From a virus, in the IMG/VR virus record IMGVR_UViG_3300041809_000448, positions 1-23,571 of that record: a stretch of DNA of 23,571 bases. One strand, given 5' to 3'. Of the stretch, positions 999-15,402 are shown piece after piece. The translations under genes were made by a program, and so were the position numbers. The notes under the pieces are model-generated. The model ran no database searches. It saw nothing but the letters and a program-made list of their open reading frames with translations, and was not told where the DNA came from. Position 1 is the stretch's first letter. Each line of letters begins with the position of its first letter.

Positions 999-1306
999 AG
1001 CCCAAGCTCGATCTAGTAATTCCCACAGGCCTCTCTGAGAAGGCACAAGCGCAATGGCTGGAAATCAACCGAGACAGCGTAATCGATGCGGCGGCGGCTC
1101 CAATCCTGATTCTTTATTTACGGGCTCTCGATGAGGTTGACGAAGCACAGTTACATATTGCCGAAGAGGGCACTGTGATGAAGGACCGTTTCGGCATACA
1201 GAAAATCAACCCGTGGGTAACCCGCGCGCGCGATTCCGCGCACACCGCGGGCAAAATGTTCCGCCTGCTCGGGTTTGACCAGGAACCGCGCGGTGCCTCG
1301 CATTAA
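995..1306 (+). CDS. terS: Terminase small subunit, P27-like
   Basis: This 103-residue protein fits the P27-type small terminase, which recognises phage DNA and hands it to the large subunit. Family-like features are a helical N-terminal part (PTGLSEKAQAQWLEI), a central helix with an EEGTVMKDRFGIQKINPWV turn, and the closing MFRLLGFDQEP helix before a short tail. It is somewhat shorter than many P27 members, which often have a longer basic N-terminus. It starts at ATG 995 inside the HNH stop (ATGA) and its end overlaps the large-subunit start. The order HNH, small terminase, large terminase supports the call. Sequence similarity is moderate, so the assignment leans partly on context. Confidence 0.8.
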   Translation: MKPKLDLVIPTGLSEKAQAQWLEINRDSVIDAAAAPILILYLRALDEVDEAQLHIAEEGTVMKDRFGIQKINPWVTRARDSAHTAGKMFRLLGFDQEPRGASH

Positions 1307-3194
1307 CCGCAAAGTTCGCGTGCGGCCACAGAATCGGGTCACCCGTGCCCAGATCCTGGAGCTGCTGATCGGTCCCAACGGCAAGACCGTCTTCGCTCTA
1401 GGGGAGGACGCTGAAGCGCTCTGGGCCGATCTGGAAACGACCTATAGCCCTGCCTTTATCCGTACCTGGTATGCGGCGTCCCTGTTCGGCGCCGCCGTGC
1501 CGGGTGGCTCGATTCCTGCCCCGAAGCGATTTGCCGAGATTGCCCGCGAATATGCCGAGCGCGTGGTGGATGGGCGTATAGACGCCTGCAAATGGACGAA
1601 ACTCGCCTGCCAGCGGCACTTAGATGATTTGGAGCGTGATGCAGCCTGCTGGAAGTACCACTTCGACGTGTCGAAGGCGGAACGAATTTGCCGTTTTCTC
1701 GAGTTACTGCCTCATGTCAAAGGCGGCTGGGCTGCGAGCGGCGAGTATATGGCGTTGCAGCCATGGCAGATTTTTATTCTCTGTGTCTTGTTCGGCTGGG
1801 TGAAAGCGGACACCGGGATGCGCCGTTTTTCATTGGCCTACATCGAGGTTCCGAGAAAGAACGGCAAGTCGCAGCTCGCCGCTGGTATTGGGCTCTATCT
1901 GCTGGCGTGCGATGGCGAGTTTGGCTCCGAAGTGTACTCTGGCGCGACCACGGAACGCCAGGCCCACGAGGTTTTCAGGCCCGCCCGGCAGATGATCGAG
2001 AAGTGTCCCGAGCTGGCCCGGGTACTGGGTTGTCCGGCGCCGACGAAGCGCATTAGCCGTCCTGAGGACCTGAGCCGGTTTGAGGTTGTGGTTGGGAAAC
2101 CCGGTGACGGGGCAAGCCCCCATTGTGGAATTGTGGACGAGTATCATGAGCATGATTCGGATACGCTTTTCGACACGTTCCGCACCGGAATGGGCGCCCG
2201 CCGGCAGCCGTTGCTCTTCGTGATTACGACCGCTGGCGATAATACCACTGGCCCATGCAAGCTGCTGCAAGGCGATGTCTGCCGAATCCTCCAGGGCGAG
2301 TTTGCCCGTGAAGAGGTTTTTGGAATCATCTACTCGCTCGATCTGGGAGACGACTGGAGTTTGCCGGAAGTTCTCGCGAAAGCGAACCCAAATCTCGATG
2401 CGAGCGTGTTCCGCGAGTTTTTGGTCACTGAGCAGCAAGCGGCGATCCGGAATCCCCGGAAACAAGGCGTATTCCAAACCAAGCATCTGAATATCTGGGT
2501 AGGCGCGGCGTCGAACTATTTCGATGTCAACCGCTGGCAGGAGCTGGGGGATTCGAAGCTCGCCCCGGAACAATTCATTGGCGACGCCTGCATTGTATCG
2601 GGTGATCTTTCGACGAAGCGTGATTTCACGGCGCGCATTGTGATGTTCAAGCGGCGTATCGATGGTAAGGATCACTACTACGTCTTCCCGCGATTCTATT
2701 TGCCGTCCGCGCAAGTAACACCGGAAGCTCCGCATTACAAAGACTGGTCCGCGCAGGGATGGATTCGGACGCATGAAGGTACGACGGTCGATTTTGGCAC
2801 GATCGAAGATGAGACGGTGGCGGATGTGACTGCCTACAATGCCACAGAGTTTGCGTTCGACCCCTGGAATGCAAGCCCATTGGCTCAGGCAGTCGGAAAG
2901 CGGACTACCGCGGTCCCGGTTGAAATTATTCAAAGCGCAAAACTCCTCTCGCCGCCAATGAAGGAACTTGATGTGCTAATCGCCGACGGGCGTATTCATC
3001 ACGACGCCAGCCCGGTGCTGACGTGGATGATGGGGAACGTGATGGCGAAGGAAGACGCGAATGAAAACGTCTTTCCGCGCAAGGAAGCCGGCCGCGAAGA
3101 GAATAAGATCGACGGTGCCGTGGCGACAATCATGGCTTTGAGCCGGGCTATGGTAGCTGTCCCAAGCGAAGCTGAAGCAATCGAGGTCTGGTAG
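1293..3194 (+). CDS. terL: Terminase large subunit (packaging ATPase and nuclease)
   Basis: This is the DNA-packaging motor and headful/cos nuclease, 633 residues from GTG 1293. The N-terminal ATPase carries a Walker A, PRKNGKS (about 187-193), the deviant form typical of HK97-type terminases, and a Walker B, GIVDE (279-283). The coupling segment FVITTAGDN follows. The C-terminal RNase H-like nuclease shows three likely metal-binding acids: D438 in VSGDLSTKRD, D523 in FDPWN and D607 in NKIDGAVA. GTG 1293 has AGGA eight bases upstream; an in-frame TTG at 1275 would add six residues. The start lies inside the small-terminase gene, and the TAG is followed directly by the portal start. Confidence 0.96.
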   Translation: MPRINRKVRVRPQNRVTRAQILELLIGPNGKTVFALGEDAEALWADLETTYSPAFIRTWYAASLFGAAVPGGSIPAPKRFAEIAREYAERVVDGRIDACKWTKLACQRHLDDLERDAACWKYHFDVSKAERICRFLELLPHVKGGWAASGEYMALQPWQIFILCVLFGWVKADTGMRRFSLAYIEVPRKNGKSQLAAGIGLYLLACDGEFGSEVYSGATTERQAHEVFRPARQMIEKCPELARVLGCPAPTKRISRPEDLSRFEVVVGKPGDGASPHCGIVDEYHEHDSDTLFDTFRTGMGARRQPLLFVITTAGDNTTGPCKLLQGDVCRILQGEFAREEVFGIIYSLDLGDDWSLPEVLAKANPNLDASVFREFLVTEQQAAIRNPRKQGVFQTKHLNIWVGAASNYFDVNRWQELGDSKLAPEQFIGDACIVSGDLSTKRDFTARIVMFKRRIDGKDHYYVFPRFYLPSAQVTPEAPHYKDWSAQGWIRTHEGTTVDFGTIEDETVADVTAYNATEFAFDPWNASPLAQAVGKRTTAVPVEIIQSAKLLSPPMKELDVLIADGRIHHDASPVLTWMMGNVMAKEDANENVFPRKEAGREENKIDGAVATIMALSRAMVAVPSEAEAIEVW

Positions 3195-4970
3195 TTGCCC
3201 TTACAGACTGGCCTATTCTCCGAGTTGATCGCTGAGGAGCGCGAAGCGCTCGCCATCGAACGCCGGAGCAGTCTCGAAAATCCGCAGACGCCATTATCTT
3301 ATCCCGCTGAATGGCTGCTCGACATTTTCAACGGTGGCCGGACGGATTCCGGTATCCGGGTTTCGGAACTGACCGCGCTGCAATGCGTCACGGTGCTAGC
3401 TTGCGTCGATATTATCGCAGGAAAAATCTCGTCGTTGCCGTGGCATGTGTTTGAGAGAGTCCCCGGTAAGAATGGCCGACAGGTTCACCGGATTGCTTAC
3501 GAGCACCAGTACTATGATCTCTTGCACACCGAGCCCAATGCAGAGATGACTTGGCGCACACTTACCAAGGCCTATCTCTGCCACGCGCTGCTCTGGAATG
3601 GCGGATACCAGGAAATCCAGCGTGACGCTGGCAATCAGGCCGTCGCTATCTGGCCGCGCAATCCATCGAAGACTAGGCCCGTGAGGGTGGCACATCAGAT
3701 TACACTTGACGCGGAGCCGTGGCGCCCCTTCCCGGTCACGATTCGCGCCGGCGAGATGTGCTTCGAGACTACGGATGGAATCGACGATCAGGATATGTCC
3801 TCCGATGGCGCTCACGGTAACCGGACGGCGCGGAAGATCCCCATGGCGGACATGCTCCATCTGCCCGGCCTCGCGCTCGATGGCCGCATCGGACAATCCG
3901 CGGTATGGCTCGCGCGCAACACGCTCGGCCAGATCCTGGCCATGGAGAAATTCGGTTCCAAATACTTCGCTAACTTCGCGAAGCCCGGTGGGATCTTGGA
4001 GCAACCCGCGAATCTACTGCCGGCCGATAAAGAGATATCGAAGCGCTCTTGGCAGGAAGCTCAAGGCGGAGAAAACGCGCATCGGGTTGCTATGTTGCCG
4101 CCGGGCTGGAAGTTCACTCCGATGTCGCACAATCCGCAAGAGGCTCAGACCCAGGAGATGCGGATCTTCTTGCGCACCGAGGTCGCGTCCGCGTTCCATG
4201 TTCCAGCTCGCATGGCTGGCGACACATCGACTAAGACGCGCGGCTCGACCGAGCAGGAAAATCAGGAACTGCTCGACTTTGCCCTTGCGCCGTGGATCGA
4301 GGCGATCCGACAGGAGTATAAGCGCAAGCTGTTTCCGCATTCCGGCGTTGGCCGCAAACCAAAGAATCCGTTCTTTCTCGATTGTGACACCTGGGAGCTG
4401 GTCCGTGGCGATTCTGCAAGCCGGGAAAAGTTCTACGCGTCAGGGCGTCAATGGAGCTACCTGTCGGCGAATGATGTGCGCGGCTTTGAAAAACTGAATC
4501 CCGTCGAAGAGCCCTGGGCCGAAGAATACCATCTGCCGATCAATATGACGCTCGCCAGCACGCCGGTTGATCCAACCCACCAGGATGGCTCGGGTAACGG
4601 TGATGTTGAGCCGGTTGCAACGGCTTATGGCCGCGTCTTTCGGGATGCTTACGGGCGCTTTCTCGCTCGCGACAAGCGGGATCTCCATGCGATACAGGGC
4701 TGTTTCAGCCCCTTTCTCTATGCATTGCGAGACCTTTTCGGAGCGCTGGCGGCTCGTGAAATGCGCACCGATGCCCGCCCGAATTCGGACTCCGAACGTT
4801 TCATCGCGGAGTATCTTGCTACCATGCAGAAACGTTCCAGTGTTTGGACCATCGAAGCCGCCGATGAGACGTGTAGTGAAGAGTTAGGCCGCGCCGCTAA
4901 GGCCGTGCGCGTTGCTGTGTATCGGGAAATCGCGGCGGAAAAAGCTAAAGAGCCGATGATCGTCGGCTGA
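3195..4970 (+). CDS. Portal protein, HK97 family, with long C-terminal extension
   Basis: The portal forms the dodecameric ring at one capsid vertex through which DNA passes. HK97-family signatures are LTALQCVTVLACVDIIAGKI near the N-terminus, MLHLPGLALDGRIGQSAVW, an amphipathic stem region around SKYFANFAKPGG, and the STEQENQELLDFALAPW segment. At 591 residues it is longer than the usual 400-450; the extra length is C-terminal (roughly residues 460-591), mostly helical and charged, and unknown to me. The start is TTG directly after the large-terminase TAG, with GAGG eight bases upstream. The bacterioferritin-like gene follows after 16 bases. The family call is firm; the role of the extension is open. 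Confidence 0.95.
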   Translation: MPLQTGLFSELIAEEREALAIERRSSLENPQTPLSYPAEWLLDIFNGGRTDSGIRVSELTALQCVTVLACVDIIAGKISSLPWHVFERVPGKNGRQVHRIAYEHQYYDLLHTEPNAEMTWRTLTKAYLCHALLWNGGYQEIQRDAGNQAVAIWPRNPSKTRPVRVAHQITLDAEPWRPFPVTIRAGEMCFETTDGIDDQDMSSDGAHGNRTARKIPMADMLHLPGLALDGRIGQSAVWLARNTLGQILAMEKFGSKYFANFAKPGGILEQPANLLPADKEISKRSWQEAQGGENAHRVAMLPPGWKFTPMSHNPQEAQTQEMRIFLRTEVASAFHVPARMAGDTSTKTRGSTEQENQELLDFALAPWIEAIRQEYKRKLFPHSGVGRKPKNPFFLDCDTWELVRGDSASREKFYASGRQWSYLSANDVRGFEKLNPVEEPWAEEYHLPINMTLASTPVDPTHQDGSGNGDVEPVATAYGRVFRDAYGRFLARDKRDLHAIQGCFSPFLYALRDLFGALAAREMRTDARPNSDSERFIAEYLATMQKRSSVWTIEAADETCSEELGRAAKAVRVAVYREIAAEKAKEPMIVG

Positions 4971-4986
4971 AAAAAGGAGAAGTTAT

Positions 4987-5457
4987 ATGAAGGGATCGCC
5001 GGAAGTCATCAGGAGTTTGGTTGCGGCGTTGCCGCTGGAAGCGCATCTGAATATCCAGTACCGTCATGATTGGCGCGTTGTGAAATACATGGGAGTCAAG
5101 ACCACCGCGAAACACCTGCATGGTCTCGGCAGTGATGCGCATGCGTTCATGAAAAAAGTGGCGGATCGGACTCTCTTTCTCGGCGGCGACACGGCCTATT
5201 CCATGGCACCTGTCACGAATCAGGCCACGCTTACCGAAATCTTCGCCAACGAACTGGCGCTTGAAATGGCAATCATAGTGCCTTATGAGCAGGCTATCCA
5301 AGTTTGTATGAAGGCGCTCGATGACACTTCACGGAATCTCTTCGAGCATCTGCTGAAATGGCACCAACAGTCCATCGGCTGGATCGAACAGCAGCAACGG
5401 CGCATGGCTGCGATGGGCGGCGAAGCCGAGTACATCCAGACCTTCGCTCGTAAATAG
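4987..5457 (+). CDS. Bacterioferritin-like (ferritin-fold) protein with a degenerate ferroxidase site
   Basis: This 156-residue protein lines up almost gap-free with Escherichia coli bacterioferritin (158 residues). It starts MKGSPEVI like the family's MKG..VI, has RTLFLGG where the family has RILFLEG, ALE before the third helix, SRNLFEHLL for SRD..E.L, and IGWIE for IDWLE. By this hand alignment two ferroxidase glutamates remain (E18 and E93 for E94), but E51 is A51, H54 is F54, E127 is H126 and H130 is S129. The haem methionine 52 is H52. So the four-helix fold is likely kept while classical iron oxidation and haem binding are probably lost. AAGGAG lies just upstream. It sits between portal and protease, a strange place for such a gene. 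It could be a capsid component, an iron binder or a host-interference protein. Confidence 0.8.
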   Translation: MKGSPEVIRSLVAALPLEAHLNIQYRHDWRVVKYMGVKTTAKHLHGLGSDAHAFMKKVADRTLFLGGDTAYSMAPVTNQATLTEIFANELALEMAIIVPYEQAIQVCMKALDDTSRNLFEHLLKWHQQSIGWIEQQQRRMAAMGGEAEYIQTFARK

Positions 5458-5466
5458 GAGGCTTCC

Positions 5467-7026
5467 ATGGAGTTCCGATTCGGTAAAATGAATTTGCAAA
5501 CGACTGCAACTCCCCCGTCGTCAGCTGGCGTGCTGGAGTTGCGCTCGCTGCGCGCTCCCGAACTGCGCGCCGAGAAGCGCGGCTCGGAAATCTATCTCAT
5601 AGGTTATGCGGCGACTTACGGAACGCTCAGCCAGAACTTCGGTGGCTGGCGGGAACGGATTATGCCGGGAGCCTTCGCGCGCGCGATTGCCGAAAAACAG
5701 GACGTTTCCCACACAGTGAATCACGATAAGAATCTCGTCCTGGGACGCACCGGCGCCGGCACTACCGTGCTTCGCGAGGACGGTAAAGGTTTGGGTTTCG
5801 AAACCAAACTCGGGACTCGAAGCTACGAAACCGATCTGTGTGAATCGGTTGCTCGCGGGGATGTCACCGGAAATAGTTTCGGTTTCATCTGCCGCAAGGA
5901 AACCTGGGTGGAAGAGCGCGACGCGGACACGAAACAAAAGATCGACGTGCGCGAGCTGCGCGACTTGGACCTAGTGGATATCTCCACTGTGACATATCCG
6001 GCCTACCCCGATACATCAGTTGGTATCGATTCTCGCGCGATGTTTCCCGAAGGTGCGCCGCTGGAATTGCGGAGCCGCGTACAGCAGTCCGCGCCGAAAC
6101 CGGGATTGATTGAGACGGCGGTTCGCCCGGAATGGTTCGAGCGTTCGCTGGCGATTATCTCTCGCGACAGCCGGCGTAATGTGGAGTTCCGCGCCGCTGC
6201 CGATCAGCAGGGCGTGCTCGAACTCTACATCTACGATGACATCGGCGAGTCCTGGTTCAGTTATGGAATCACAGCGAAAGGCGTCAAGGCGGCGCTCGAT
6301 AGCGCATCGGCTCCCTACGCAACCATCAGGCTCTGCATCAACTCAATGGGCGGCGATGCGAATGAAGCTACGGCGATCTATAACTTACTCCGGGCGCGTG
6401 CCTCGCAGGGAAAGAAGATTGAGGCGCGCATCGACGGCGGAGCTTACTCCGCAGCCTCGGTAATCGCGATGGCCGGCGACACAATCACCATGGGCCGCGG
6501 GGCTATGATGATGGTCCATTGTAGTTCCTGCGGTTATTGGGCGAATGCGGCGCAATTCCGCGCTATCGCCGATTGGCTCGATATCTGCGACGATGCGATT
6601 GCGGATATCTATATCGCGCGTACCGGCAAGAGTGTAGCGCAAGTGAAGGCGCTCATGGAAGCCGAGACATGGATGGGGCCGCAAGATTGCATAGACCAGG
6701 GATTCGCGACCGGGTTGAGCGTGAACGACAACGCGGCTCCGGTAGTTCCCGAAGAAACGGATTGCGTGTGTGCTTGCGAGGCGTGTGCGGCCGGTCGTTG
6801 CTCGGACTGTTCGAATCAGGATTGCGAGGATACGGACTGCATGAATTGTCCGATGCAGGCGGCGACAGCGAAAATCGCAGATGCCTCCGGGCGCTCCGCT
6901 TACCTGCTCGCTTCCTATCGAAATGTGCCGGATGCGGTTCGGTGCGCCAGTGAGCGCATAGCAAAGTTACAAAGCGCTAGGGAGCGCCGGATGCGGCTGC
7001 GTTTGGCGGAGGCGGAGACTTCGTAA
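5467..7026 (+). CDS. Fused head-maturation protease: HK97 prohead protease plus ClpP-like protease with cysteine-rich tail
   Basis: This 519-residue protein appears to join two unrelated head-maturation proteases. Residues about 20-200 look like the HK97 prohead protease (herpesvirus-protease fold): GYAATYG, MPGAFARAI, VNHDKN with H86 and GNSFGF with S137 as likely catalytic pair. Residues about 235-420 look like a phage ClpP: SMGGDANEA, GGAYSAAS with nucleophile S328, MVHCSS with H351, and the AETWMGPQDCIDQGFATGL closing motif. Residues 433-461 hold nine cysteines (433, 435, 437, 440, 445, 448, 453, 458, 461), suggesting metal binding, followed by a basic helical tail. AGGAGG overlaps the previous stop. 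Phages normally use one protease type. The frame is continuous, so this is not a sequencing join I can see. Confidence 0.9.
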   Translation: MEFRFGKMNLQTTATPPSSAGVLELRSLRAPELRAEKRGSEIYLIGYAATYGTLSQNFGGWRERIMPGAFARAIAEKQDVSHTVNHDKNLVLGRTGAGTTVLREDGKGLGFETKLGTRSYETDLCESVARGDVTGNSFGFICRKETWVEERDADTKQKIDVRELRDLDLVDISTVTYPAYPDTSVGIDSRAMFPEGAPLELRSRVQQSAPKPGLIETAVRPEWFERSLAIISRDSRRNVEFRAAADQQGVLELYIYDDIGESWFSYGITAKGVKAALDSASAPYATIRLCINSMGGDANEATAIYNLLRARASQGKKIEARIDGGAYSAASVIAMAGDTITMGRGAMMMVHCSSCGYWANAAQFRAIADWLDICDDAIADIYIARTGKSVAQVKALMEAETWMGPQDCIDQGFATGLSVNDNAAPVVPEETDCVCACEACAAGRCSDCSNQDCEDTDCMNCPMQAATAKIADASGRSAYLLASYRNVPDAVRCASERIAKLQSARERRMRLRLAEAETS

Positions 7027-7186: not shown

Positions 7187-8536
7187 ATGCAACTTACTCA
7201 AGCTCGGGATCTGCGCGAACAGCGAGCCAAACTGGTACAGCAGGCCCGCGATGCGTATGACTCCAAAACCGGCACGCCCGAAGAGCGGAGCGCCAGGTTC
7301 GACAGCATTATGGCGGATGCCGACAGGCTGAAGCCTGAAATCGACCGCGCGGAACGTCTCGAAGCGGCCGAAACCGAAACCCGTTCCAGCGGCGCACCGC
7401 CCCAAGCCGGCCTGCCCTCCGCCGGAAACGACCCGGACGAAGAGACGCGGAAGCGTTACGACCGTGCCTTCACTAACTACCTGCGCTATGGCTTCGATCC
7501 GAAGCCGCAATTCAGTATCATGGGAATCACGCCGGAGGAAAGGGCGATTCTCACGCCGAAACGTCAGAGTGTCCAGGTGGAAGCTCGAGACCTCGGCCCG
7601 CAATATCGCGACATGGGATCGGGCGGCCAGGGCGCCTATCCGGGTGCAACCACGGGCTTCTTTGTCCCGGTTGGATTCACGGACAAAATCACGGAAGCCT
7701 TGAAGTACTACGGCAATATGCTGGCGGAGGCGGAAGTATTCGACACCTCAACCGGACAACCCCTGCCTTTCCCGACTGACAACGACACCTCGATCATTGG
7801 TGAGTTGGTAGGTGAGAATCAGCAGGTCAACGCGCAGGACGTGTCGATTGGTCAGATCATGTTCGGCGCCTACAAATTCAGCTCCAGGTTGGTCAAGGTG
7901 TCCATCGAACTCTTGCAGGACTCGGCGTTCGACTTTGACGCTTTCCTGACCCGCAAGTTCGCCATCCGTCTGGGCCGCATCCTGAACAACAAGTTCACCG
8001 TGGGAACCGGAACCAATCAGCCGACCGGCATTATCACGGCGGCAACCGCCGGCCCAACTGCGGTTGGCTCCTTTGCCAACGACGGAGTAGGCGGAGCCAA
8101 TACCATTGGGTCCGACGATCTGATCGAGCTGGAACATTCGGTCGATCCGCTCTATCGTCCGGGTGCCAAGTACATGATGAACGACCTGACGCTCAAGGTG
8201 CTCAAGAAGCTCAAGGACAAGTTCGGGCGCCCCTTGTGGTTGCCTGGCCTGGCCGTAAAGGAACCGGATACGATCAACAGCTATCCGTTTTCGATCAACA
8301 ACGACATGGCGACGCTGCCGTCTACGGTTGCTTCGCCGCCGGTGCCCTACATCTCAGTGGCTTTTGGGCAGTTAAAGCTCTACGGTATCCGCCGCGTCAA
8401 GGACATGAGCGTGCTGCGTCTGGAAGAGCGTTTCGCTGACTTCGGCCAGGTGGCATTTCTGGCTTTCTACCGCGCCGATGGCAACTTGCTCGATGCGGGC
8501 ACTCACCCGGTAAAATATCTCACCAATCAGTGCTAG
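7187..8536 (+). CDS. Major capsid protein, HK97 fold
   Basis: This 449-residue protein is the main shell subunit. Residues about 1-100 are charged and helical (REQRAKLVQQARDAYD onward), like the HK97 delta domain that acts as internal scaffold. The capsid fold follows: TGFFVPVGFTDKI, the extended E-loop region, FSSRLVKVSIELLQDSAFDF, the GTGTNQPTGIIT segment, YMMNDLTLKVLKKLKDKFGR, and the C-terminal VAFLAFYRADG. Cleavage by the upstream protease is expected near residues 120-135 (TPKRQSVQ). I start at ATG 7187, eight bases after GAGGA; an in-frame TTG at 7037 would add 50 residues unlike a capsid N-terminus. Structured RNA elements flank the gene on both sides. Confidence 0.95.
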   Translation: MQLTQARDLREQRAKLVQQARDAYDSKTGTPEERSARFDSIMADADRLKPEIDRAERLEAAETETRSSGAPPQAGLPSAGNDPDEETRKRYDRAFTNYLRYGFDPKPQFSIMGITPEERAILTPKRQSVQVEARDLGPQYRDMGSGGQGAYPGATTGFFVPVGFTDKITEALKYYGNMLAEAEVFDTSTGQPLPFPTDNDTSIIGELVGENQQVNAQDVSIGQIMFGAYKFSSRLVKVSIELLQDSAFDFDAFLTRKFAIRLGRILNNKFTVGTGTNQPTGIITAATAGPTAVGSFANDGVGGANTIGSDDLIELEHSVDPLYRPGAKYMMNDLTLKVLKKLKDKFGRPLWLPGLAVKEPDTINSYPFSINNDMATLPSTVASPPVPYISVAFGQLKLYGIRRVKDMSVLRLEERFADFGQVAFLAFYRADGNLLDAGTHPVKYLTNQC

Positions 8537-10287: not shown

Positions 10288-10671
10288 ATGCCCCGGCGCC
10301 CGGTGGTTTCCTTTGTCGGTGGATGGCCCACGCTCGATGTGGGACGTTTGGTTCATGCGATTACCATCTACCAGCAGCAGATGCAAAGCCCTCCCGAGTA
10401 TGACGCCGCGGGCATGGTGGTTCCATGGAGTCCGATTGCCACGGCAATGGCGGCCATCGAGATCATGCGCGGAACGGATGTGATCCGCTCCGGTCAAGCG
10501 ACCTCTCAATTATTCATCGAAGTTACTCTGTGGTGGCAGCCGGGAATCGAACCGAACATGCAGATAGTCTCGGACAACTGCAGCACCTATATCATTCAGT
10601 CCGTCGAAAACGTGAATGAGCGGAATGTGGTATTGCGTTTGAACTGCCTGGGCCTCGGTGCGAACGTATGA
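10288..10671 (+). CDS. Head closure (head-tail joining) protein
   Basis: This 127-residue protein resembles the SPP1 gp16 / HK97 head-closure family, which plugs the connector and offers the tail-binding surface. It has a small beta-barrel pattern: VVPWSPIATAMAAIEIMRG in the middle, then LFIEVTLWWQPGI, MQIVSDNCSTYIIQSVENV and the closing VVLRLNCLG strand. It lacks the usual longer N-terminal segment. The start is ATG 10288 directly after the upstream TAG; its TGA overlaps the ATG of the first glycosyltransferase (ATGA, 10668-10671). The overlap shows that the sugar-transferase cassette is translated as part of the head-tail operon. Confidence 0.78.
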   Translation: MPRRPVVSFVGGWPTLDVGRLVHAITIYQQQMQSPPEYDAAGMVVPWSPIATAMAAIEIMRGTDVIRSGQATSQLFIEVTLWWQPGIEPNMQIVSDNCSTYIIQSVENVNERNVVLRLNCLGLGANV

Positions 10672-11321
10672 ACGGGCCTCTGGTTACGTGCGTTTGTATC
10701 ACCCGCAACCGGCGCGCATGGCTCCCGCAGGCGATTGCCTGTTTTGAATTGCAGACGTATGTCAACCGGGAACTGCTTATCGTGGCGGATGGCGAAGACG
10801 TGAGCGATCTCATTTCTAGCGAAGATTCGCGGATTCGCCTGCTTTGCTGTGGAACGCCGCTTTTAATTGGTCCGAAACGGAACTGGGCAAACGAACGCGC
10901 GCAAGGTGAGCTGATAGCTCACTGGGACGATGACGATTATTCCGCTCCCGGAAGACTCACGGACCAGGTTGCGCGGCTTGAGCAGACAGGCGAGGCGGTC
11001 ACCGGCTACTACTCGATGAAGTTTACCGATGGAGTGAATTGGTGGAGGTATGTCAATTCTTCACTGGATTCAGGACATGCTCTTGGAACCTCGCTTCTGT
11101 ATCGCCGGGAATACTGGGAATCGCATCCTTTCGGGGATTTCAAAACTGGCGAGGATCAGATTTTCAGCGTCCGGGCGCATCAGGAAAATCAACTCACTGC
11201 CGCCGATGCATCGAGCGACCTGGAGCCGCGATGCACTGCGCAAGATCTGATGTATGGGTCCATCCATGCCGGGAACACCTCGAAAAAGAATACCGAATGC
11301 GCGGTCTGGAGGAAACTGTGA
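10668..11321 (+). CDS. Glycosyltransferase family 2, first of five
   Basis: This 217-residue protein has a GT-A fold of the family 2 type. The N-terminal strand-loop VTCVCITRNR and ELLIVADGED are the nucleotide-sugar binding part. GPKRNWANERAQGELIAHW leads into D87-D88-D89-D90 (DDDDYSAP), the metal-binding DxD motif. The C-terminal GEDQIF segment holds the likely catalytic acid, and SIHAGNTSKKN is a common tail of phage and bacterial members. It is short and has no membrane segment, so it is probably cytoplasmic. The ATG overlaps the head-closure stop, and its TGA overlaps the next GTG. Donor sugar and acceptor cannot be told from sequence. Confidence 0.9.
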   Translation: MNGPLVTCVCITRNRRAWLPQAIACFELQTYVNRELLIVADGEDVSDLISSEDSRIRLLCCGTPLLIGPKRNWANERAQGELIAHWDDDDYSAPGRLTDQVARLEQTGEAVTGYYSMKFTDGVNWWRYVNSSLDSGHALGTSLLYRREYWESHPFGDFKTGEDQIFSVRAHQENQLTAADASSDLEPRCTAQDLMYGSIHAGNTSKKNTECAVWRKL

Positions 11322-12019
11322 GCGTCTGGTTTGCGATTCCTTCGGCGCGTCCCGCCCATGAAGTGGAAGATCGTCTGCGTCTCTGGCGAGAGCGCGGTTA
11401 CAAGATTGCTTTGTTTTGCGATGTCAAGCGCTCGCATATGCCCGTTGCGGAGATTCTGCTGATCGGTGAGTACCTGGGATACGCCCTGGCCGTGAATGCG
11501 CTGGTGGCTGAAATTCTTTGCCGCGATTCGGACGCTGCATGGGTTGTGACCGGCGGCGATGATACCGACCCAGATAACTCCCATATGGCGCGAGAAATTG
11601 CGGAAGAGTGCTCGAAGCACTTTACGGGTACTTTCGGCGTCATGCAGCCCACGGGGGATCGTTGGGATGGCGGCTGTATTGACCGGATCTGCGGCTCTCC
11701 GTGGTTGGGCCGGGAATTCTGTGAGCGCGCCAATCAAGGCCGTGGCCCTCTCTGGTACGAATATACGCATATGTTTGTGGACGAGGAGTTACAAAACGTC
11801 GCTATCGGTTTGGGAATCTTATGGCAGCGGCCGGATCTAACTCACATCCATCATCACTTCTGCCGAGTAGGGGATCGAGTTGATTGGGCGCGCGGGCGTC
11901 AGGCAATGCCCGAATTTTTGCGCGAAGCCAACAGCCTCGCCCATTGGGAAAAGTTCCGCGCGTTGTTTCAAGCGCGCAGGGCGGCCGGCTTCCCCGGTTC
12001 GGAGCCGCTGCCCGCATGA
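11318..12019 (+). CDS. Glycosyltransferase-like protein, second of five
   Basis: This 233-residue protein from GTG 11318 looks like a compact GT-A transferase. It opens VWFAIPSARPAHEVEDRL with a strand YKIALFCDV, continues through VNALVAEILCRDSDAAWVV to the acidic GGDDTDPDN motif (D81, D82, D84), the likely metal and sugar-nucleotide site. The later parts GVMQPTGDRWDGG, SPWLGREFCERAN and WYEYTHMFVDEEL, then HIHHHF, resemble the acceptor half. The GTG start overlaps the first transferase's TGA (GTGA) with GGAGG six bases upstream. The frame is also open upstream to 11039, but that part overlaps the first transferase. I recognise the fold, not the enzyme. Confidence 0.82.
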   Translation: MSVWFAIPSARPAHEVEDRLRLWRERGYKIALFCDVKRSHMPVAEILLIGEYLGYALAVNALVAEILCRDSDAAWVVTGGDDTDPDNSHMAREIAEECSKHFTGTFGVMQPTGDRWDGGCIDRICGSPWLGREFCERANQGRGPLWYEYTHMFVDEELQNVAIGLGILWQRPDLTHIHHHFCRVGDRVDWARGRQAMPEFLREANSLAHWEKFRALFQARRAAGFPGSEPLPA

Positions 12020-12069
12020 AGGGTCCACAAGAAATGGAGAAACACATTCCGGCGCGGCCCCGCTCTTAA
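12016..12069 (+). CDS. Possible 17-residue minicistron bridging two transferases
   Basis: ATG 12016 overlaps the stop of the second transferase as ATGA and gives a 17-residue basic peptide (MKGPQEMEKHIPARPRS) ending in TAA at 12067-12069, seven bases before the next ATG. That next start has no Shine-Dalgarno site, so this short frame may serve to carry ribosomes across the gap. It has no recognisable function as a peptide. Confidence 0.25.
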   Translation: MKGPQEMEKHIPARPRS

Positions 12070-12076
12070 ATCCCCC

Positions 12077-12703
12077 ATGAATAACCTGAAGCAATTGACG
12101 CTGGTCGTAGTTGGCAAGGATGAATCCAGCTTGCGCCGATTCGATCTCGCTCACATCGGCGCTGCGGAGTGCGTGCTGCTGGTCAACTACAGCAAGGTTC
12201 CGCTATCAGTAATCGGTAATCGCTTCCTCGATGCCTGTCTTCCCTTATTCGGTATGGTCCATGCGGATGTCTCTTTTGGTCCGACCGCCCTCGATGTTTT
12301 CGCCGATGCCGTTGAATCTGGAAACGTTTGCGGCGTGGTGGGCTGGAACTGCGATCTAAAACCGGGAGATCCGGGAGCTAATCCGGGAGACAAGGGAGGC
12401 CGCGCTGGCGAGGTATGGTGCTATCAGAACCCCGGTCCGGTTTCTACGCTCGATTCCGCCGCCGTGTTTTTCCGCCGCGATTTGGAATTGCGTTTTGATG
12501 AGAAGACTTTTGATGGCTTCCACTGTCACGTGGAAGACCTCTGTATTCAAGCCTCCGAGCGCGGCATTCCAGTTGCTGTGCCGTCTGCGAACGCAACCCA
12601 TAACTCAGCGTTGAATCCGCCAGCCGAATGGCGTAGCGATTACGATGTCTACTACCGGCGGCTCAAACAGAAATGGCCGCACGTGAGATTTGGAGTCACA
12701 TAG
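12077..12703 (+). CDS. Glycosyltransferase-like protein, third of five
   Basis: This 208-residue protein looks like a trimmed family 2 transferase. The first strand LTLVVVGKDESSL, the HADVSF segment with D64 (possible DxD equivalent), and STLDSAAVFFRRDLELRF, followed by FDEKTFDGFHCHVEDLCIQA, match the acceptor half of such enzymes, where the HVEDLC acid would be catalytic. A proline/glycine loop (GDPGANPGDKGG, about 97-108) is unusual. The start ATG 12077 has no Shine-Dalgarno site and is preceded by ATCCCCC. The gene ends TAG two bases before the next possible start. The fold call is fairly safe; substrate and activity are not. Confidence 0.78.
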   Translation: MNNLKQLTLVVVGKDESSLRRFDLAHIGAAECVLLVNYSKVPLSVIGNRFLDACLPLFGMVHADVSFGPTALDVFADAVESGNVCGVVGWNCDLKPGDPGANPGDKGGRAGEVWCYQNPGPVSTLDSAAVFFRRDLELRFDEKTFDGFHCHVEDLCIQASERGIPVAVPSANATHNSALNPPAEWRSDYDVYYRRLKQKWPHVRFGVT

Positions 12704-12706
12704 TAT

Positions 12707-13522
12707 GTGGACGATGGCAGGTACACATCGGAGTACCCGGTCGCTCTTTGGGCGTGTCACATTGAAGTTGCGCGGACTCTTCGAAAGCCGATGAACGTGC
12801 AAATTACCACCGTCGGCTGGACCGGCTGGTACCCGCGCGGCGTGGCGAGAATGCAGGAGCATTTTGAGCGACTGTCGCCCGGCTATCGAGTTACGCCTTG
12901 GGTGAGTGAGTTGCCGCCCGGCGCTCCGTTTTCGGAGGGAGACTACACCGGCTATTGCGCGAAGCCTTACGCTCTGTGGCATCTCATGAACGAAGGTGCG
13001 GACATTGGCATTCTGCTCGATGCCTCGTACTTCCCAATTCGAGATATTACGCCACTGGTCGATCACATCGCAAGCGTCGGCTATTACATGACGCCCGATG
13101 GATACACGCTTGGGCAGTGGATGAGCGAACGGATGCTTGAAGGATTTGGGCTGAACCGTGAAGATACACTCGGCTGGCCGGGCTGTGCTTCCGGTTGTGT
13201 GGGAATCGACTTCCGGCGCAGCAAGGGCCGCTCTCTGGTGAATGAGTGGTGCGCGGCGTGGCCGCTGTTCGCTGGCTTTCATTCGAACGAAAAAGCGGCC
13301 GATCAGTCTCACTCCTACCGGAATGTGGGCTGGGTATCGGACGATCCGCGCGTGCTAGGTCACCGGCAGGATCAGAGCGCGTTAGTCGTAATCGCGCGTC
13401 GGCTCGGTATGACGGACTATTTCACGGCTCCGCATTTCGCGGCTTACTCGGCATCGCATAAGGACTGCATCGAGTGCTGCCGCGCGACCGAGGACACGGT
13501 TTTACTTTGCGAGGGCATGTGA
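12707..13522 (+). CDS. Glycosyltransferase-like protein, fourth of five
   Basis: This 271-residue frame contains a second type of GT-A-like domain. YCAKPYALWHLMNEGADIGI followed by LLDASYFPI (D105) is like the acidic strand of nucleotide-sugar transferases that move capsule or lipopolysaccharide sugars, but the second acid of DxD is replaced by serine. HRQDQSALVVIARRLGM is the common DQSAL helix. I list GTG 12707, which has GGAG 11 bases upstream. An in-frame ATG at 12791 (MNVQITTVGW) would give 243 residues and also starts at a sensible strand. A separate 29-residue frame from ATG 12705 ends there as ATGA. The stop overlaps the fifth transferase as GTGA. Confidence 0.72.
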   Translation: MDDGRYTSEYPVALWACHIEVARTLRKPMNVQITTVGWTGWYPRGVARMQEHFERLSPGYRVTPWVSELPPGAPFSEGDYTGYCAKPYALWHLMNEGADIGILLDASYFPIRDITPLVDHIASVGYYMTPDGYTLGQWMSERMLEGFGLNREDTLGWPGCASGCVGIDFRRSKGRSLVNEWCAAWPLFAGFHSNEKAADQSHSYRNVGWVSDDPRVLGHRQDQSALVVIARRLGMTDYFTAPHFAAYSASHKDCIECCRATEDTVLLCEGM

Positions 13523-14418
13523 AGCTGATCGCCGGGATGCTTGCGCGCAACGAAAGCTGGGCTCTCGGTATGACCGCCCGCGCTGTGCTTCAGTGGTGCG
13601 ATGAGCTAATCATCCTCGATCACGCGAGCACGGACGATACGCGATTGATTGCGATGCAAGTCGCCTGGGAGCATCCGAAGCGTGTCGCGGTTCTATATGA
13701 GCCTTCGCCGGTCTGGGAAGAGATGCGCCACCGGCAGCGGATGCTCGACACGGCGCGCGAACACGGAGCCACGCATTTTGCGATTGTGGACTCTGACGAA
13801 ATTCTCACTGCGAATCTGCTGCCGAAGATCCGCGGTTACGTCGAAGAGACGCCCGCCCGTTCGATCCTGATGTTGCCCTGGGTGTGTCTGGCGCGCGGGC
13901 CCGAGCGCTATTACTCTTCGGGTATCTGGTATCGGAACTGGGTGGTTACGGCGTTCCAGGACGCCCCGCAGCTCAACTGGTCCGCATCCATTCGTGGTGG
14001 CTATGACTTCCATCAGCGGAGCCCGTTCGGATGTGCCTGGGGAATTCATCGTCCGGTTGACCAGGCGCTATCAAATCACCAGGGTGGATTGATGCACCTG
14101 CAATTCGTTAACGAGCGCCGGCTGAAGGCGAAGCAATATCTGTATCAGCTCACCGAACGGCTGCGCTGGCCCGGTCGCGAGCCGGTGTCCGCGGTAGTGG
14201 CGCGTTACCGCCCTGCGATTGTGCAGAGCGACCCGTTTGTGGTATCGACCGCGCCCGCGCCGATTGCCTGGTGGGGCGGTTACAGTAATCTGTTACCGCA
14301 CTTTCATGCTGCCCAGGAGCCTTGGCAAATCGCGGAGATTTCCCGGTTGCTGCGCGAGAAGCCGGAACTTGCCGTCGGTCTCGATGATTTCGGGTTGCGC
14401 GCGGAGATGGCGGCGTGA
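13519..14418 (+). CDS. Glycosyltransferase family 2, fifth of five
   Basis: This 299-residue enzyme is a clear family 2 transferase. It opens IAGMLARNESWAL with LIILDHASTDDT, the nucleotide-sugar binding motif of the type seen in LgtF-like enzymes, and has the DxD motif IVDSDEIL (D91, D93). The central RYYSSGIWYRNWV and HLQFVNERRLKAKQYLYQ segments fit the acceptor half, and a C-terminal extension of about 90 residues is helical. No membrane segment is seen. The start is GTG 13519, overlapping the previous TGA; an upstream in-frame ATG at 13474 lies within the previous gene. Its own stop overlaps the tail-terminator start (GTGA, 14415-14418), tying the cassette to tail genes. Confidence 0.9.
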   Translation: MKLIAGMLARNESWALGMTARAVLQWCDELIILDHASTDDTRLIAMQVAWEHPKRVAVLYEPSPVWEEMRHRQRMLDTAREHGATHFAIVDSDEILTANLLPKIRGYVEETPARSILMLPWVCLARGPERYYSSGIWYRNWVVTAFQDAPQLNWSASIRGGYDFHQRSPFGCAWGIHRPVDQALSNHQGGLMHLQFVNERRLKAKQYLYQLTERLRWPGREPVSAVVARYRPAIVQSDPFVVSTAPAPIAWWGGYSNLLPHFHAAQEPWQIAEISRLLREKPELAVGLDDFGLRAEMAA

Positions 14419-15327: not shown

Positions 15328-15402
15328 CGCGGGGTAGACAAACGGTAAGTCGCCTGGCTCATAACCAGGAAATTCAGGGTTCGATTCCCTGCCCCGCTAC
15401 CA
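15328..15402 (+). tRNA. tRNA with CAU anticodon, initiator-like
   Basis: A full cloverleaf folds by hand. Acceptor CGCGGGG (15328-15334) pairs with CCCCGCT (15392-15398) except at the first pair, C1 x U72; the discriminator is A and CCA is encoded (15400-15402). D stem GAC/GTC has A11-U24. Anticodon stem CCTGG/CCAGG holds loop CTCATAA with CAU at 15360-15362. T stem CAGGG/CCCTG holds loop TTCGATT. An unpaired 1-72 and purine 11 with pyrimidine 24 are marks of bacterial initiator tRNA, as in E. coli fMet, but pair 29-41 is T-A, not G-C. It could be initiator Met, elongator Met or Ile (lysidine). It lies in sense between the tube and chaperone genes. Confidence 0.93.

Follow-up and report, generated by a model that had tools for sequence, protein, structure and literature searches.

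A bacterioferritin-derived protein that has lost iron-handling residues is encoded in the head operon of mostly uncultured phages

A gene between portal and protease

The window, i.e., the whole 23,571-nucleotide stretch analyzed here (IMG/VR record IMGVR_UViG_3300041809_000448), carries a head operon on its plus strand. Based on PHROGs, which we used to assign the neighboring genes, this operon includes genes for the large subunit of the terminase (1275..3194; phrog_9, 9e-163), the portal protein (3195..4970; phrog_12, 9.5e-85), a head maturation protease (5467..7026), and the HK97-type major capsid protein (7187..8536; phrog_10, 1.2e-56). The gene at 4987..5457, also on the plus strand, starts with ATG, encodes a bacterioferritin (Bfr)-like protein of 156 residues, and is separated by 16 bases from the end of the portal gene at 4970 and by 9 bases from the start of the protease gene at 5467. 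A ribosome-binding site, AAGGAG (4974..4979, plus strand), can be read from the sequence 7 bases 5' of the start codon. The initial annotation had placed the gene in a head operon with this site and these gaps; its coordinates were confirmed, and the PHROGs assignments of the terminase, portal, protease, and HK97-type capsid genes agree with it. The Bfr-like gene is supported as a real gene under selection.

The protease encoded downstream is a double protease with an S78 domain (residues 34 to 191; PF04586, 1.2e-39) followed by a ClpP-like domain (residues 280 to 414; PF00574, 1.6e-18) and a Cys-rich tail; in the protease of one relative (L137, 6498..8084), the ClpP-like and S78 domains occur in the reverse order. 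The C-terminal region contains the motif CxCxxCxxxxCxxCxxxxCxxxxCxxCPMQ (6751..6860), which is possibly metal-binding and is present in many relatives as well. A link between this domain and the Bfr-like gene was considered and rejected: a strict regular expression detected the domain in 13 of 31 loci with the Bfr-like gene versus 4 of 75 loci without it, and a profile detected it in 19 of 31 versus 27 of 75 loci, i.e., the domain is widespread among relatives rather than specific. Further downstream, glycosyltransferase-like genes and genes of unknown function occupy 10668..14418 between the head-completion and tail genes, and a homolog of the gene at 10668..11321 recurs in three other loci (L003, L015, and L019). 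A tRNA-Met (CAT) gene is located at 15328..15402 between two tail-region ORFs.

Bacterioferritin ancestry, distribution, and exchange of the gene

A Bfr-like fold had been claimed from a hand alignment, and this claim held up in HMM searches, structure prediction, and comparison to the PDB. The window protein matches the Pfam Ferritin family (PF00210) with an E value of 1.2e-11 and 45.1 bits versus a gathering score of 24.5, and it matches the NCBIfam family TIGR00754 (bfr) with an E value of 3.5e-15, i.e., the relationship is above chance, at 56.3 bits versus an equivalog cut-off of 125.55. All 18 members of set A1 match PF00210 at an E value of ≤0.01, and a divergent member (L056) scores below the cut-off at 19 bits. 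Using phmmer against the PDB, the best E value was 1.2e-9 with matches to Bfr, and there was one weak sequence match to Dps (E value of 0.12). The AlphaFold2 model of the window protein, which like all models used here is of a single chain, has a pLDDT of 95.1, a pTM of 0.87, and the five helices of a Bfr subunit (A, 5 to 34; B, 38 to 64; C, 82 to 109; D, 113 to 142; and E, 146 to 153). The top structural matches in the PDB identified using Foldseek are all Bfrs with TM scores of 0.87 to 0.96, mostly at 1.2 to 1.5 Å. Thus, the window protein descends from bacterioferritin and has kept the five-helix subunit fold. It shares with Bfr (TIGR00754; PDB 1bcf, 8sqr, and 5xx9) its length, the N-terminal MKG..VI, and helix E. 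Its identity to cellular Bfrs is ~30% or less, while identity among the phage proteins averages 60%.

Approximately 30 IMG/VR contigs, mostly from uncultured phages, encode this family, which is found only in phages. Pattern scans of IMG/VR identified 24 loci, and a second set of patterns identified the same 24; further members were found using a helix-C pattern (L043), as additional loci (L137 and L140), and via the portal, which identified three contigs with a divergent form (L056 to L058). In a tree with 8 cellular Bfrs, 27 phage sequences are on one side of a branch with a support of 100/100, i.e., they are monophyletic. Two pattern scans of 84,980 species genomes, in which divergent copies could be missed, identified no member, PHROGs contained no match for the Bfr-like protein, and tblastn against 50,697 phage records identified no member, its hits being to a bacterial chromosome labeled as a phage. 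The latter, Acinetobacter phage MD-2021a (CAKLQH020000007.1; L049), contains smc, zipA, ligA, and bfr and was discarded; similarly, matches on plasmids are ordinary cellular Bfrs and served as comparators. In agreement with the earlier remark that no standard head module is known to have such a gene, none of the reference phages in the collections that we searched carries it. In the open-licence literature, we found no paper on a phage bacterioferritin in head modules and no earlier account of an iron-less cassette of this kind, derived from Bfr and located in a head operon.

A search of related phages for the same gene at the same position had been proposed, and in nearly all loci, the gene order is portal, Bfr-like gene, and protease, with the Bfr-like gene immediately after that of the portal. 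The neighbors themselves vary. In L039, they are unrelated to those in the window, the portal being of lambda type (phrog_21) and the protease occurring as a protease-capsid fusion (phrog_4523), and the protease belongs to phrog_53 in L031 and is a ClpP-S78 fusion in L137. On one contig (L025/L040), the gene is located between two capsid-protein-like genes and not between those for portal and protease. Among 80 relatives of the portal, 5 have the gene, 54 have the portal abutting the protease, 16 have other content, and 5 have no visible junction; the gene is, therefore, present at 5 of 75 visible junctions and optional. Other small genes are found at this junction, just after the portal (L059, L071, L075, L078, L082, L099, and L026/L003). 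The occupants in relatives encode proteins of ~135 to 150 residues as well as proteins with weak ParB-like (L099) and winged-helix (L026) matches; an Ig-like identity considered for those in L075, L078, and L082 was dropped, as they have no Pfam match.

The Bfr-like gene has also been replaced on its own. Between L034 and L027, the large terminase subunit, portal, protease, capsid protein, and downstream protein are 94 to 97.5% identical at the amino acid level with a dS of 0.12 to 0.34, while the Bfr-like proteins are 65.4% identical with a dS of 1.95. The drop in DNA identity coincides with the gene and has sharp edges, and each allele recurs in at least two contigs (L027 and L028; L034, L036, L016, and L018). 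This synonymous divergence shows allele replacement of a single gene and not fast evolution of the protein. More broadly, the identity of the Bfr-like protein is only moderately correlated with that of the portal (r of 0.48). The nearest relative of the window portal is in L056, the Bfr-like protein of which is among the most distant from that of the window (45%). Because Bfr-like proteins can be 43 to 45% identical where portals are 75 to 76% identical (L056) and 65% identical where portals are 97.5% identical (L034/L027), we conclude that the gene is exchanged independently. Slow evolution of the Bfr-like protein, considered based on its mean identity of 55% at a portal identity of <35%, was abandoned in favor of this explanation. 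The portal-protease junction would be a cassette site at which phages cleanly exchange individual genes.

Iron-handling residues and the conserved stretch in helix D

We mapped the published functional sites of E. coli Bfr, including the pore residues (PMC4319037; PMC3467274), onto 26 of the phage proteins and onto 8 cellular Bfrs; L140 is outside this table. At the ligand positions, the window protein has E18, A51, H52, F54, E93, H126, and S129, exactly as the hand alignment had it, and two of six ferroxidase ligands are kept. In all tabulated members, ferroxidase residue E51 is replaced by A/S/T and H54 by F/W/Y, and E127 is His in 26 of 26. E18 is kept throughout, E94 (E93 in the phage proteins) is kept except for an Asn in L056, and H130 is kept as H129 in 24 of the 26, Ser at this position being peculiar to the window phage. 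The heme ligand Met52 is replaced by His (22 members) or Gly (4 members), and the iron-guiding E47 is replaced by a hydrophobic residue (F/L/I/Y). The B-channel acids D34, D132, and D139 are mostly Phe, Gly, and Arg, respectively, the 4-fold residue Asn148 is lost from every member, and Gln151 is kept by the window protein only. H28, which is present in 8 of 8 cellular Bfrs, is Asp or Asn in the phage members. In L140, E93 is the sole survivor of the six ligand positions (A18, S126, and R129), and the model has the same five-helix fold (pLDDT of 93.6), which argues that no metal site is needed family-wide.

In ferritin cages, helices B and D face the cavity. Their combined net charge, a helix-level proxy for the acidity of the cavity rather than a computed surface, is 0 to +6 in the phage proteins versus −5 to −11 in cellular Bfrs. 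The suggestion that the protein is no longer an iron store is borne out by the family-wide loss of the ferroxidase site, heme Met, channels, and acidic interior, and, as judged from these residues, the family appears to have given up iron oxidation, iron entry, heme binding, and iron storage. Together with the location in a head operon and the score below the equivalog cut-off, these losses distinguish the phage protein from Bfr, and we treat it as a novel form of the ferritin fold rather than as a bacterioferritin.

The most conserved stretch comprises codons 112 to 126 (DDTSRNLFEHLLKWH; 5320..5364, plus strand) in the first half of helix D, with a mean entropy of 0.15 versus 0.9 to 1.6 elsewhere. 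R116, N117, and E120, which correspond to positions 117, 118, and 121 of the Bfr 3-fold pore, are invariant in 26 of 26 members, and this invariance is inflated because most members were detected using helix-D peptide patterns. Only L056 (via its portal) and L043 (via the helix-C pattern) were ascertained independently of these patterns, and both keep D112, D113, R116, N117, L118, E120, H121, L122, K124, W125, and H126. The 3-fold-pore residues are not highly conserved among Bfrs (PMC3467274); in the table, they vary among the cellular Bfrs and are fixed in the phage family. Most close pairs have a dN/dS of ~0.1, demonstrating purifying selection among them.

Possible functions

The initial annotation had proposed a structural or binding protein, perhaps part of the capsid or portal vertex. 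This proposal is supported in part, in that the protein appears to be no longer an iron store. An essential part, or one matched to the portal or the protease, is disfavored by the optional nature of the gene, which most relatives of the portal lack, by its location beside an unrelated portal in L039, and by its clean replacement as a single gene between near-identical phages. Instead, we tentatively favor a noncatalytic, oligomeric ferritin-fold protein with a conserved helix-D face that is encoded by an optional capsid-operon cassette and has an accessory role in the virion. We infer late expression, since the gene lies in the capsid operon and would be expected to be produced together with head proteins, and recombination at the gene edges would swap the cassette between phages. 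Among the aligned members, 3-fold positions of a 24-mer cage are kept and 4-fold residues are lost. The protein is most likely a non-ferroxidase homo-oligomer, i.e., a cage or a trimer-based assembly, and the conserved helix-D face, which corresponds to the 3-fold region in ferritin cages, may hold the oligomer together or bind a partner. We consider an accessory virion role, either on the head or inside it, the most likely use, and the location in capsid operons with unlike head modules favors it.

A more specific version, which we consider doubtful, is that phages recruited a Bfr as a structural or cargo part of HK97-type heads: the ferritin-derived oligomer would reside on or in the virion, its gene would be exchanged as a single-gene cassette, and the arrangement would be a phage counterpart of the encapsulin-ferritin partnership. 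Encapsulins are likely derived from HK97-type phages, and in encapsulin systems whose cargo is ferritin-like or a Bfr, a gene for an HK97-fold shell and one for a ferritin-fold protein also share an operon (PMC8346489). In contrast to these systems, the phage gene lies amid a full head module, and its product has no ferroxidase site and ends with helix E, is not longer than cellular Bfrs, and has no encapsulin targeting peptide. If correct, the favored reading would clearly exemplify how a ferritin can lose its iron chemistry and be taken up into the head operons of phages, and, should virions contain the protein, it would link ferritin cages to HK97-fold shells on the virus side and bear on the origins of encapsulin-ferritin systems.

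The main rival is a host-directed role, which is possible but rather unlikely. According to this explanation, a late protein binds a variable host factor in anti-defense, superinfection, or host takeover, the ferritin fold is a scaffold only, and the gene occupies the head operon because the junction tolerates insertions and is expressed late. This would fit with the optional nature of the gene, the single-gene allele replacement, the poorly matching gene relationships, and the other small genes at the junction, including those with weak ParB-like and winged-helix matches. However, it does not readily account for the capsid-module location across different portal and protease families or for a conserved face that maps to an oligomer axis. 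The accessory virion role has its own difficulties, as exchange independent of the portal, protease, and capsid genes speaks against close contact with their products and is just as compatible with a host-directed gene, and as L025/L040 places the gene outside the portal-protease junction.

We regard a metal-binding function, in which E18, E93, H126, and H129 form a remodeled single-metal site instead of the di-iron site, as improbable. The replacement of E127 by His in all 26 tabulated members, H129 in 24 of them, and the nearly constant E18 and E93 resemble coordinated change rather than random decay. However, a 2-Glu/2-His site is broken in the window protein (S129), L020 (Q129), L137 (I129), L056 (Asn at 93), and L140 (E93 only, with the fold kept), and metal binding, which had been put forward earlier, cannot, therefore, be the general function of the family. 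Still less probable is a dominant-negative subunit that is built into the bacterioferritin cages of the host and prevents them from storing or releasing iron. The Bfr-like subunit fold with helix E would allow this, and natural hetero-Bfr cages consist of unlike subunits with ≤45% identity, those of Shewanella (SoBfr1/2) providing a precedent for subunits with lost motifs such as the helix-2 ExxH (PMC12120770). By contrast, the phage protein lacks both heme Met52 and the ferroxidase center, we noticed no bfr gene for a partner next to its own gene, its identity to cellular Bfrs is low, and H28 is replaced; moreover, because the 3-fold positions, which vary in cellular Bfrs, are fixed in phages and the 4-fold Asn/Gln are missing, contacts with host Bfr subunits are probably unmatched.

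An ordinary auxiliary iron store or antioxidant is very improbable given the family-wide loss of iron-handling features, even if phages with genes for Dps and Mn-catalase, ferritin superfamily enzymes thought to act in oxidative stress, are known (PMC8008677). Matches of the window protein in BFVD, some of which are large and named prohead protease or Dps, are only 10 to 15% identical with TM scores of 0.6 to 0.84, and none is known as a portal-protease cassette. Three of these from uncultured phages (A0A6J7XDU5, A0A6J7WIS1, and A0A6J7WPK9), all annotated as prohead proteases, resemble the ferritin fold in structure with TM scores of 0.62 to 0.66, and these models suggest that ferritin-like domains may be fused to proteases elsewhere in phages.
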